In this document: positions 10,430-63,539 of the stretch, piece after piece
Layout of the letters: each line of letters begins with the position of its first letter
How positions within the stretch are numbered: position 1 is the stretch's first letter
DNA from: Chthonomonas sp.
Lineage (GTDB): Bacteria; Armatimonadota; Fimbriimonadia; Fimbriimonadales; Fimbriimonadaceae
Length of the DNA stretch: 64,000 nucleotides
Assembly: GCA_016788115.1 (NCBI GenBank)
Contig: JAEURR010000006.1
Coordinates: 372,001-436,000 of the forward strand
Direction: 5' to 3'
Notes under the pieces: generated by a model
What the model saw: the letters and a program-made list of their open reading frames with translations, nothing else
Told to the model about the DNA's origin: nothing
Databases searched by the model: none
Translations under genes and position numbers: made by a program

Positions 10430-11188
10430 TCAGTACATCCAGTCGGCGAGGAAATAGTTCGCGATATAGATGAGCACCATCGAGAGGACGACCGTATTCG
10501 TCGTCGCGCGCCCTACGCCCACCGCACCGTCCTTCGTCCGCAGTCCTTGCTGGCACGCGACGACGCTCACGATGAAGCCAAAGACCAAAGTTTTGATCAT
10601 GCCCCCGATGAAGTCCCACGGCTCAACGAACTGTCGAATGGACATGACGAACGATTCGCCGGGGACCCCGCCCTGGAGCGACACCAAGTAACCGCCGAGC
10701 ATGCCCGAGTACACGCCAATCATGCACAAGACTGGCAACATGACGATGCATGCGATGATTCTGGGGATCACCAGGTAGTTGGTCGGATGCACCGACAGAG
10801 CGCGGAGCGCGTCAATCTGCTCGGTCACCGCCATCGTGCCAATCTGCGCGGCCATCGAGGAACCGCACCGAGCCGCGACCATGATCCCCGCTAGTACCGG
10901 GGCGATCTCGCGTGTGACCGCAAGGCCGATGGTGCCACCCGCGAGGCTGCTCGCACCATATTTGACAAGCAGCTCAGTGGAATACAGCGCCAAAACCGAG
11001 CCTGAGAAAAATGTGGTGAGCGCGACGATGGGGACCGAGGCCACTCCAATGAACGCCATCTGCTGGACGGTTTCGCCGACCTCGCGCGGGCGGCTCAGCA
11101 AGCGCGAGACAAAACTCGAAACGATGAGCGTGCACTCGCCGACAAAAGTTACCAGTGCCGAGATCGCTTGGAGGGCACCGCCAATCAT
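10430..11188 (-). CDS. MlaE/YrbE-family lipid ABC transporter permease
   Basis: A 252-aa integral membrane permease of the MlaE family, which with an ATPase (MlaF-like) and an MCE protein (MlaD-like) moves phospholipids between the inner and outer membranes of diderm bacteria. Family hallmarks are the FFSGSVLALYSTELLVKYG helix, the cytoplasmic coupling segment TREIAPVLAGIMVAARCGSSMAAQIGTMAVTEQIDAL and the closing GVGRATTNTVVLSMVLIYIANYFL. No ATPase or MCE gene is adjacent. It follows the flagellar-type operon by 20 nt, but a TAAGAT element 7 nt before the ATG suggests its own leaderless promoter. Confidence 0.9.
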   Translation of the reverse strand: MIGGALQAISALVTFVGECTLIVSSFVSRLLSRPREVGETVQQMAFIGVASVPIVALTTFFSGSVLALYSTELLVKYGASSLAGGTIGLAVTREIAPVLAGIMVAARCGSSMAAQIGTMAVTEQIDALRALSVHPTNYLVIPRIIACIVMLPVLCMIGVYSGMLGGYLVSLQGGVPGESFVMSIRQFVEPWDFIGGMIKTLVFGFIVSVVACQQGLRTKDGAVGVGRATTNTVVLSMVLIYIANYFLADWMY

Positions 11189-11195
11189 GCCCGCG

Positions 11196-11201
11196 ATCTT
11201 A
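11196..11201 (-). promoter_or_regulatory. Leaderless-type -10 (TAAGAT, 7 nt to ATG) for the MlaE-type gene
   Basis: On the minus strand TAAGAT lies 7 nt before the ATG and no Shine-Dalgarno is present. The same arrangement recurs before many genes in the window. Confidence 0.5.
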
Positions 11202-21696: not shown

Positions 21697-21702
21697 AGTT
21701 TA
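21697..21702 (-). promoter_or_regulatory. Leaderless-type -10 (TAAACT, 7 nt to ATG) for the M29 aminopeptidase
   Basis: On the minus strand TAAACT is 7 nt before the ATG at 21689, with no Shine-Dalgarno between them. Confidence 0.55.
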
Positions 21703-27934: not shown

Positions 27935-27940
27935 AGTTTA
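27935..27940 (-). promoter_or_regulatory. Leaderless-type -10 (TAAACT, 6 nt to ATG) for pgk
   Basis: On the minus strand TAAACT is 6 nt before the pgk ATG. No -35 hexamer is obvious. Confidence 0.55.
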
Positions 27941-29075: not shown

Positions 29076-29200
29076 GGTTGACTCCAGAATATAAGGACAT
29101 GGCGGCTGAGCCGCCCAATTCATTCTAACCCAGATTCCCCGCGGATGTGGTCGTTCTCGGAATATTCGCCCTCAATCCTTGAGGTATCCTGACGCTCCAC

Positions 29201-34001: not shown

Positions 34002-34007
34002 TAATCT
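34002..34007 (+). promoter_or_regulatory. Leaderless-type -10 (TAATCT, 6 nt to ATG) for the TolC-like gene
   Basis: TAATCT is followed by GAAACC and then the ATG at 34014; there is no Shine-Dalgarno. Confidence 0.5.
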
Positions 34008-39130: not shown

Positions 39131-39136
39131 TATAAT
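39131..39136 (+). promoter_or_regulatory. Leaderless-type -10 (TATAAT, 6 nt to ATG) for the DUF454 gene
   Basis: A perfect TATAAT is followed by CAAGGT and then the ATG at 39143. Although CAAGGT contains AAGG, the -10 is so close that the transcript would begin at or beside the start codon. Confidence 0.65.
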
Positions 39137-39142
39137 CAAGGT

Positions 39143-39607
39143 ATGGCTTCCGCCCAACTTGCCAAGCCTATTCGCTGGTTGTATCTGATCGGAGGCTTCT
39201 CGTGCGTCGCGCTGGGTTACATCGGACTCCTGGTCCCCGGCATGCCAACCACCGTCTTCCTCATACTGGCGCTCTTTGCGTTCAAGCGCAGCAGTCCGCG
39301 CCTGGAGTCGTGGCTCCTCAACAACCGTCTCTTCGGCGAGGCGCTCCGTGACTGGGACGCGCACCGTTGGATGTCCCGAAAATCAAAGATCATTGCGATC
39401 ACGATGGTTTGGGTCGGCATCGGCTCCTCAATGCTGCTCGTGCATAAACCCACAACCAAGGGGATCCTGTTTGCAGTCGCCGCGATCTTGACGATTTACC
39501 TGCTCCGCATCCGACTCAAGCCTAAGGTAGCGGAGCTAAACCTCGCAAAAAAGCGGGTACTGGATTCCGCCACAAACGCATCAAATTCTGAGCAAGTGCC
39601 GTTATAA
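39143..39607 (+). CDS. DUF454 (YbaN-like) inner-membrane protein
   Basis: A 154-aa small membrane protein of the DUF454/YbaN family, whose function is not known. Hallmarks: WLYLIGGFSCVALGYIGLLVPGMPTTVFLILALFAFKRSSPRLESWLLNN, read in segments, and a second hydrophobic pair near residues 85-120. A charged cytoplasmic tail follows. It is probably monocistronic, with its own TATAAT element, and lies between the export operon and the amylase gene. Confidence 0.88.
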   Translation: MASAQLAKPIRWLYLIGGFSCVALGYIGLLVPGMPTTVFLILALFAFKRSSPRLESWLLNNRLFGEALRDWDAHRWMSRKSKIIAITMVWVGIGSSMLLVHKPTTKGILFAVAAILTIYLLRIRLKPKVAELNLAKKRVLDSATNASNSEQVPL

Positions 39608-39608
39608 T
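39603..39608 (+). promoter_or_regulatory. Leaderless-type -10 (TATAAT, 6 nt to ATG) for the amylase gene
   Basis: A perfect TATAAT is followed by CCAGCT and then the ATG at 39615, so the transcript should begin at the start codon. No Shine-Dalgarno is present. Confidence 0.65.
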
Positions 39609-39614
39609 CCAGCT

Positions 39615-42600
39615 ATGAACCGCAAAGTTGCGTTGTTCGGACTGGTCTCATTGGCGATGACCTTCCCCGCCGCTACGTTTGCCATCGGATGGATGGGCAA
39701 TACGAAGGTGTACGAGGGCTCCAACCTTTACCCAAATCGCGGCGCCTACATCGAGAGCAGTCAGTCGATGACCATCACGACTGAGACATGGCCGATCGCG
39801 GCGAACCAGCAGGTGGTCGCAGTCGTGACCACGAACAATTGGCAATCGACCCAGGAATACGTATTCTCCTGGGACGGCAATATCGGCAATAACAGTAAGT
39901 GGTACTGCGTTCTGCCCCACTTCAACAAGAACACTTCGGTGCAGTTCTATCTGCGGGCGCAGGAGTATCAGAACGGGACCGTTTATGATAACAACGGCAG
40001 CGCAAACTTCGGCTTCTTTGTTCGGCCCAGCCCGAACTACCGGGACACTCCGATCCTCCAGTGGTTCCAGACCGACTACAAGACGATCATGGCTCGGCTC
40101 CCCGAAGTGGTCGCCGCCGGTTACGGAGCGATCTATCTCCCGCCGCCCAGCAAGGCGGGTGGGGGCGGCTTCAGCACGGGATACAACCCGTTCGACTTGT
40201 TTGACTTGGGCGACCGGATGCAAAGCGGGACGCTCCGGACCGCCTACGGCACGGCACAGGAATTCCAGGAGCTGCTTCGGCTGAGCAAGCGACTCGGTAT
40301 CGAGGTCTATGTGGACATGGTGCTGAACCATTCGGACAACCGCGCTTCGACCAGCATCAACCGGTACCCAAGCCTCATCCCCGAGGACTTCCACATCAAG
40401 AGCAGCGCCAACACTTCGAACACCGAGATTGATTTCAACACGGCCAGCGACTTTGGCTTCTCGATGCTCAATTACGACCTCGTGGGCCTCGCAGACTTTG
40501 CCCATGAAGACGGGAACAACACTCGTACCGGCACGTTTACCCTTCCCTCCTACGCCACCAACAATGCGTGGGGCAAACCGTCATTCATCCGCAATAAGCC
40601 CGCTCGGAACCTGTACCCGGGCACGTTTACTCCCGTCGCCGAAGACGTGCGCGAATACCTGCGCCGCTGGGGCCGCTGGATGACCGAGACCATCGGCGTG
40701 GACGGCTACCGGCTGGATGCGGTCAAGCATATTCCGCCTCCGTTCCTCGGCTACGCACCGGATCAGCCCACTGCGGGCAACAGCTTCAGTCGCGGCGACA
40801 TGCTCAACTACATGGTCTCGTTCAACCCGAACCTGTACATCTTCGGCGAGAATTTCACCACGAACGCGTACGCCCACCGCGAGTTTGCAAAAACGGGCAT
40901 GAACCTGCTCGACTTCAACCTCTTCTACAACATGAAGAGTCTGTTTGGCGCGGGCGGCTTCGGCGACATCGGGGCCTCGCTGAGCAATGCATACGGAGTC
41001 GACGGCAATGGCGTGCCGTTTGAGAGGGGCGGGCTGGCCCCGAGCGTCGGAGTCAGCTTTGTGCAGAGCCACGATGATGGCCCACCAACCTCAAACAATC
41101 TGGCCTACGCCTTCCTGCTCACCCGCACCGGACGCCCCAAGGTCTACTACGACGGCAACAATATTCTGCCTGGCAACTGGTCGAACTTCCCGCGGCCCGG
41201 CCGAGCGGACTCGCTCGGGCTGTCGTCGGACGTCGTGCCTCAGTTGCTCGACGCCCGGGCGCGCTTCGGGCGCGGCACGATGGTCAATCGCTTCGTGGGC
41301 GCCGACCTGTACGTCTACGAGCGGCAGGAAGCTGGCAAGGGCACGATGCTCGTCGGGCTGAACGACCGCGGCGACACTTCGATCACGCAGCAAGTGCAGA
41401 CGGCCTTTCCAAACGGCACAGTTCTCGTGGATCTGAGCGGCCAGCGGTCAAACGTCACGGTCGATAGTACGGGCAAGGTGACCATCACCGTGCCGTCGAA
41501 CTCGACCGCAGGCAATACCAACAACGCCAAGGGTTACGTGATCTACGTGCCAGACTTCCCGCGCGCCCTGCCGAGCGTGGATCCGGTCACCGTCAACGAG
41601 ACCTTCGACACGCGCTCGAAGCCTCTGGACCCTACGATCGAAGACACGTACGACCTTCCGTTCGGTACTTACGGTTCGGCCAAACAATACTCCGCGGCGA
41701 CGATCCGTCGCAGCTACTTGGACATCAACGTCACCACTGATACAACAGGCGCAGACGCCTACGTCAAGGTGGACAACGGCGTGGCGCTCCCTGGCATGAG
41801 CGCGGAGACCGGTGGCCCCTACAGCGGATTAGTGAACGGATTCACGCGCATGACCTCGCTTGGCCAAGGTCAATTCCGACTGGGAGCCGTCGATCTGATC
41901 AACATGCCCGATGGACTCCATGTGATCCGTGTTCGAGTTTTCAAGAACGTCGGTACGGCGGCGCCGGTCTTCAACGACTTCCTGCAGTTCGTGTATCTGG
42001 CCCGTGGCTATCAGGGAACGCCCGTCGACGGCGTCATCACAGGCAGTTTGCTCACTGGCCAAACCAAGAACGCCACTTCGAACTCGAATCGGGCGGATGG
42101 TTTGTATCTGAACAACGATGGGCAGTACTTATACGTCGCGATTTCGGGTCGCGTCGATACGAACGCCGGATTCACGAACGGGTTCATGGCGTTCCTGGAT
42201 ACCGACCCGGGATCGGGAACAGGCGTCACCGATCTCACGACGCTTAAGGACGACAGTGGCCCCGCCACCCGTCTTTTGTCAAACCGCAAGGTCATTGCCC
42301 CGTCCGGCTTCGGCGCCGAGATGGGCATCGCCTCGCTGTGGGGCCGCGGGCTCAATTCCGCGCCTGAATCGACGGCGGGTAGCACGCTCGTCAATCCGTT
42401 CACCATCGGTTCTATGGCGGGCGCATACCGTTTCACGCAGGTGGACCGCTTTACCGGGGTGCCCGCGCTCGTGGCGTACCAAGAACGAACGAACAAGGGC
42501 GATGCAGCCAAGGGTCTTGAGTGCGCGGTGCGGCTTTCGGACCTGTTCCCGAGCGGTCTCCCGGCCACGCCTCGAGTAGGAATCGTGGCAGGCCTAGGTA

Positions 42601-49967: not shown

Positions 49968-49973
49968 AGTTTA
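49968..49973 (-). promoter_or_regulatory. Leaderless-type -10 (TAAACT, 7 nt to ATG) for the nitrilase
   Basis: TAAACT on the minus strand lies 7 nt before the ATG at 49960. It sits just before the end of the AddA-like gene (stop at 49998). Confidence 0.5.
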
Positions 49974-60614: not shown

Positions 60615-60728
60615 GGTTCCTCCTGGAAACTATTGGCGGCTCAATCCCTGAACCTCAACTTCATGATACTCCACCCCGCTCCCCTCCTTGACTTCCAATT
60701 CACGTCGGTTCATAATAGAAGTCCCTTC

Positions 60729-61500: not shown

Positions 61501-61506
61501 TACACT
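61501..61506 (+). promoter_or_regulatory. Leaderless-type -10 (TACACT, 8 nt to ATG) for dus
   Basis: TACACT lies 8 nt before the ATG at 61515, with no Shine-Dalgarno. The spacing is at the long end of the pattern. Confidence 0.4.
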
Positions 61507-63372: not shown

Positions 63373-63378
63373 AGGATA
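63373..63378 (-). promoter_or_regulatory. Leaderless-type -10 (TATCCT, 6 nt to ATG) for the hydrolase
   Basis: TATCCT on the minus strand is followed by CCGACC and then the ATG at 63366. No Shine-Dalgarno. Confidence 0.55.
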
Positions 63379-63486: not shown

Positions 63487-63533
63487 TTGGGGAAAGTAGA
63501 TTTTACCTCAGCCCCCACAGGACCCGTTCAAGG

Positions 63534-63539
63534 TACCCT
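63534..63539 (+). promoter_or_regulatory. Leaderless-type -10 (TACCCT, 7 nt to ATG)
   Basis: TACCCT lies 7 nt before the ATG at 63547 of the polysaccharide-export gene. No Shine-Dalgarno is seen. Confidence 0.45.

Follow-up and report, generated by a model that had tools for sequence, protein, structure and literature searches.

A promoter -10 element next to start codons points to leaderless transcription of a share of first genes in the Fimbriimonadaceae

The window considered here is a stretch of 64,000 nucleotides (nt) from contig JAEURR010000006.1, lying inside a 2.40 Mb, nine-contig genome that is deposited as Chthonomonas sp. and placed by GTDB in the Fimbriimonadaceae. Relatives of the genome's RpoA belong to Armatimonadota, and some of them are labelled Fimbriimonadia. 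The window contains two adjacent genes, encoding a DUF454 protein and a member of the alpha-amylase family, each of which is preceded by a perfect TATAAT hexamer that is separated from the ATG by exactly six nucleotides (N6). Direct reading places both sites exactly where an original prediction, made from the letters of the window, had put them. This perfect arrangement occurs four times in the whole genome and not once in a reversed control. The original prediction held that these hexamers are -10 promoter elements of leaderless messenger RNAs (mRNAs), and listed further sites of the form TANNNT in the window. All of these exist, but two of them, GATACT and TAAACC, do not fit the pattern, and the motifs found before a TolC-like gene and a hydrolase gene belong to starts that are longer than those chosen by our gene caller. 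By itself the window proves little because the excess is marginal (TANNNT at a spacer of 6-8 nt precedes 7 of the 63 called starts, and the four control offsets give 1-5) and because the bare pattern TANNNT-N6-VTG is not enriched across the whole window, with 16 occurrences found and 23 expected.

The genome-wide tests covered 1.23 Mb (51%) of the genome, taken as stretches, in which 1046 genes were called with a codon model that is blind to upstream motifs; 640 of these are the first genes of their transcription units. TANNNT lies at a spacer of 6-7 nt before 57 of the 640 first-in-unit starts, compared with a mean of 11.6 and a maximum of 19 in 200 shuffles, and the predicted positional peak is therefore present in this half of the genome, where the excess over chance is strong rather than marginal. 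The motif is better written as [T/C]ANA[A/C]T, in many cases preceded by G or GG, and in this sharper form it is found at the same spacers before 48 of the 640 starts (shuffle mean 3.5, maximum 9). It is most common before divergent genes, with 34 of 350 at a spacer of 6-7 nt and 55 of 350 at 5-9 nt, and is nearly absent from overlapping operon genes (1 of 155).

The identity of the element is revealed by the transfer RNA (tRNA) genes. The sample holds 24 of these, and all 23 that have enough upstream sequence for scoring carry the same element, typically as GG-TATCAT, GG-TAAAAT or CATAAT, ending 9-18 nt (mostly 10-14 nt) before the mature 5' end. Since tRNA genes are untranslated, this makes it a promoter element and not a translation signal. 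A matrix was trained on the tRNA promoters alone, which avoids circularity when protein genes are scored, and was then run on protein genes at spacers of 5-8 nt; its threshold detects 22 of the 23 tRNA promoters, which are also its training set. Of 350 divergent genes the matrix accepts 60, against 9.0 in shuffles (maximum 18), and of 290 same-strand genes whose gap is 50 nt or more it accepts 25, against 6.0 (maximum 13), whereas the 3 of 210 tightly coupled genes that pass are at the shuffle level of 2.7. The signal is thus confined to the first genes of transcription units. From these counts by gene class we estimate the leaderless share at about 14-17% of divergent genes, a figure that depends on the start calls, and about 18-22% when spacers of up to 12 nt, equivalent to leaders of up to about 6 nt, are included; the original estimate of one third of unit starts was too high. 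Class fractions obtained by EM were discarded, as shuffled input gave classes of similar size, although without a position peak. A canonical -35 element upstream of the leaderless -10 was looked for in the motif genes and not found. The -10 elements fall into two subclasses. One is TANNNT, in which the hexamer often directly follows a G or GG; the other is CA(T/A/C)A(A/C)T, usually with a G at -2 but not at -1. Each of the three CATAAT promoters among the tRNA genes has TTGA or TTGC at a -35-like spacing, and the subclasses are possibly two promoter types.

Motif genes largely form a separate class from genes with a Shine-Dalgarno (SD) site. As the original prediction proposed, they rarely have one: among first-in-unit genes an SD is found in 3 of 48 motif genes and in 160 of 553 genes without the motif (Fisher p = 3e-4). 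SD-like sites precede 16% of divergent and 42% of tightly coupled genes in the same sample. The 16S tail GGATCACCTCCTTT is present and contains CACCTCC, the usual anti-SD, so that SD and leaderless systems can coexist in this organism.

Conservation of the element is clearest at the nitrilase gene, which was compared in 30 genomes of the family, consisting of the query and 29 further genomes with protein identities of 52-61%. The upstream regions show about 25% identity per column except for the block GGTA.A.T, which is held at a constant distance, and a C at -1. TANNNT is present at a spacer of 5-7 nt in 28 of the 30 genomes; no SD was detected in any of the 30 by our own test, and neither a -35 block nor anything else apart from GGTA.A.T is conserved within 60 nt upstream. 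At pgk TANNNT is found in 26 of 30 genomes, again with GG ahead, at spacers of 6-12 nt.

The spread of the arrangement in the Armatimonadota was followed in 201 genomes by counting TANAMT-N6-ATG (M, A or C) against a frame-matched control with a spacer of 12 nt (N12); the counts of 16 families were transcribed by hand. The genome under study has 59 matches against 20 in the control (p = 6e-6). In the family to which it belongs (61 genomes sampled; taken by inference to be the Fimbriimonadaceae) the median N6/N12 ratio is 2.6 and 29 of 34 genomes are individually significant. Significance is also reached in 12 of 12 genomes of family f17, in 6 of 7 of f26 and, with small counts, in 3 of 4 of f19. 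The strongest signal in the phylum sample is that of f17, where genome G052 has 436 matches against 65 (6.3 Mb) and G116 has 376 against 81 (4.8 Mb). Families f8, f10, f12, f21, f23, f24 and f33 show no signal, with ratios of 0.9-1.1. Checks at the level of genes found a peak in G001 and in G052, and none in G061, a member of f12, in which SD sites precede 50-71% of genes depending on class; f12 presumably contains Chthonomonas. Judged by these counts the predicted trait is patchy within the phylum, with a signal in the Fimbriimonadaceae and in two or more further families and none in at least seven of those sampled. The presence of ribosomal protein bS21 in the phylum genomes does not separate families with a signal from those without. 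It was found in families that carry the signal and in many that do not, and the genomes in which it was not detected include members of f9, f24, f25 and f33.

In bacterial promoters of ordinary geometry, a -10 element that ends 6-7 nt before an ATG places the first transcribed base on the A of that codon or next to it. It is proposed that the motifs described here are ordinary -10 elements of the form [T/C]ANA[A/C]T, with no recognisable -35 and in many cases with a G or GG just ahead, and that they stand near enough to the start codon for transcription to begin on it or a few nucleotides away. The 5' end of the mRNA would then fall on or next to the first base of the start codon, which is ATG or, less often, GTG. 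Such an mRNA has no room for an SD and would have to be translated with no leader or almost none, presumably by recognition of the 5'-terminal AUG as is known elsewhere. The motif, its position, the gene class that carries it, the avoidance of SD sites, the identity with tRNA promoters and the conservation within the family are observed, and together with the negative genome they support the original prediction; the exact 5' ends and the route of translation are what we infer from them. Leaderless or near-leaderless transcription of a share of first genes is the favoured reading, with a probability of about 0.9.

Several points weigh against it. The start codons come from a simple gene caller of our own, and most divergent genes have neither an SD nor a start-proximal -10, which leaves either an unexplained third class or errors in the start calls. 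The range of spacers at pgk implies that the element is kept while the leader would vary from 0 to about 6 nt, so that some of these mRNAs would have short leaders. The DUF454 orthologues give no clean start alignment, and as their start varies the support for this site is weaker. The TAA stop codon of the DUF454 gene (39605-39607) lies inside the TATAAT that precedes the amylase gene; these bases may serve both a promoter and a stop codon, or the resemblance may be in part accidental.

A coincidence that arose from reading a single window would account for the marginal excess and the unenriched raw pattern seen there, and individual sites may still be due to chance, but for the genome as a whole this explanation is refuted by the genome- and family-wide counts, the shuffles, the offset controls and the negative genome, and it is hardly credible. 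It is also highly improbable that the motif lies inside a leader and acts there in translation as an AT-rich element. Such an element would suit a position near the start codons of genes without an SD, and AT-rich upstream biases are known in several phyla (PMC5397173), but it would not be expected before all of the scorable tRNA genes, nor would it be most frequent in divergent genes and missing from all but one of the overlapping operon genes.

The start codons could instead be mis-assigned, with the real starts lying downstream and the -10 serving an ordinary leadered mRNA. Start calling is imperfect, and two of the window sites hinge on the choice of start. However, SD sites at downstream in-frame starts are found in 5.6% of motif genes compared with 7.6-8.0% of others, and all 30 nitrilase genes have ATG or GTG where the alignment puts the start, the motif lying ahead of it at a distance that hardly changes, which makes this explanation very unlikely. 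Finally, the element may be a real but minor -10, with the main promoters located further upstream and producing leaders. Some motif genes do adjoin a same-strand neighbour, such as those starting at 39615, only 7 nt past the DUF454 gene, and at 11188 (20 nt), but the enrichment is highest in divergent genes, the motif genes mostly lack an SD, and the nitrilase upstream regions hold no second conserved block within 60 nt. We consider this explanation unlikely. The sites in the window are listed in Table 1.

Table 1. Start-proximal -10 and -10-like elements, associated genes and tRNA promoter elements in the window
Feature	Position	Strand	Basis or remark
-10 element TATAAT, N6 before ATG 39143 of the DUF454 gene	39131..39136	+	direct reading; Pfam DUF454
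DUF454 gene, probably leaderless	39143..39607	+	Pfam; orthologue starts vary
-10-like TATAAT, N6 before ATG 39615	39603..39608	+	direct reading; overlaps stop codon TAA 39605-39607; weaker case
alpha-amylase-family gene, 1166 aa	39615..43115	+	Pfam
-10 element TAAACT, GG ahead, N6 before pgk ATG 27928	27935..27940	-	Pfam gene identity
-10 element TAAACT, GG ahead, N7 before nitrilase-family ATG 49960	49968..49973	-	Pfam gene identity
-10 element TAAACT, N7 before M29 peptidase ATG 21689	21697..21702	-	Pfam gene identity
TAAGAT, N7 before MlaE ATG 11188	11196..11201	-	Pfam gene identity; upstream neighbour 20 nt away
TAATCT, N6 before ATG 34014, TolC-like outer membrane efflux protein	34002..34007	+	Pfam; gene caller preferred later start
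TACACT, N8 before dus ATG 61515	61501..61506	+	Pfam gene identity
TATCCT, N6 before ATG 63366, alpha/beta hydrolase	63373..63378	-	Pfam; gene caller preferred later start
TACCCT, N7 before ATG 63547	63534..63539	+	gene runs past window end; without Pfam identity
tRNA-Arg promoter -10, GG-TATCCT, 10 nt before tRNA	29185..29190	+	
tRNA-Val promoter -10, CATAAT, 12 nt before tRNA	60711..60716	+	
tRNA-Gly promoter -10, GG-TAAAAT, 13 nt before tRNA	63500..63505	-	

A wider proposal, that Fimbriimonadales use leaderless initiation as a principal mode for their first genes and that gains or losses of it occurred several times within the Armatimonadota, is tentative and in our estimate somewhat more likely to be wrong than right; if it were true, comparison within the phylum would be a natural way to learn what permits or prevents leaderless translation. 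The patchy signal among families of one phylum offers a test of correlates of such gains and losses. Further mRNAs with short leaders may be concealed among the many first genes that lack both an SD and a nearby -10, and gene finders based on SD sites will probably assign wrong starts in these bacteria. Where no transcriptome exists, the comparison with tRNA genes supplies a -10 model that can be used instead.

In the literature on Armatimonadota, Armatimonadetes and Fimbriimonas no description of leaderless transcription was found, within a coverage that does not extend to the GeneMarkS-2 species table, and the lineage is thus a new one for a known phenomenon. A survey of SD and anti-SD sequences puts SD usage at 25% in Fimbriimonadia and at 70% in Chthonomonadetes, in agreement with the low usage found here and the high usage in G061; the passages of the survey that give these values deal with SD usage and make no promoter or leaderless assignment for either class (PMC10783764). 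GeneMarkS-2 is cited as predicting leaderless transcription in 21.6% of bacterial species, and the genomes of its leaderless class, as described in the citing passages, mix leaderless and SD genes like the genome studied here (PMC9581028). Leaderless genes led by TAnnnT have been described in Actinobacteria, where they make up about 20% of genes, and in Deinococcus-Thermus, in a paper whose text does not mention Armatimonadetes (Zheng et al. 2011, PMC3160421). Like those systems, the arrangement reported here consists of a -10-like signal at a fixed short distance from the start codon, and it differs from them in belonging to another phylum, in having an informative fourth position (A) and in the G or GG that often stands before the hexamer.
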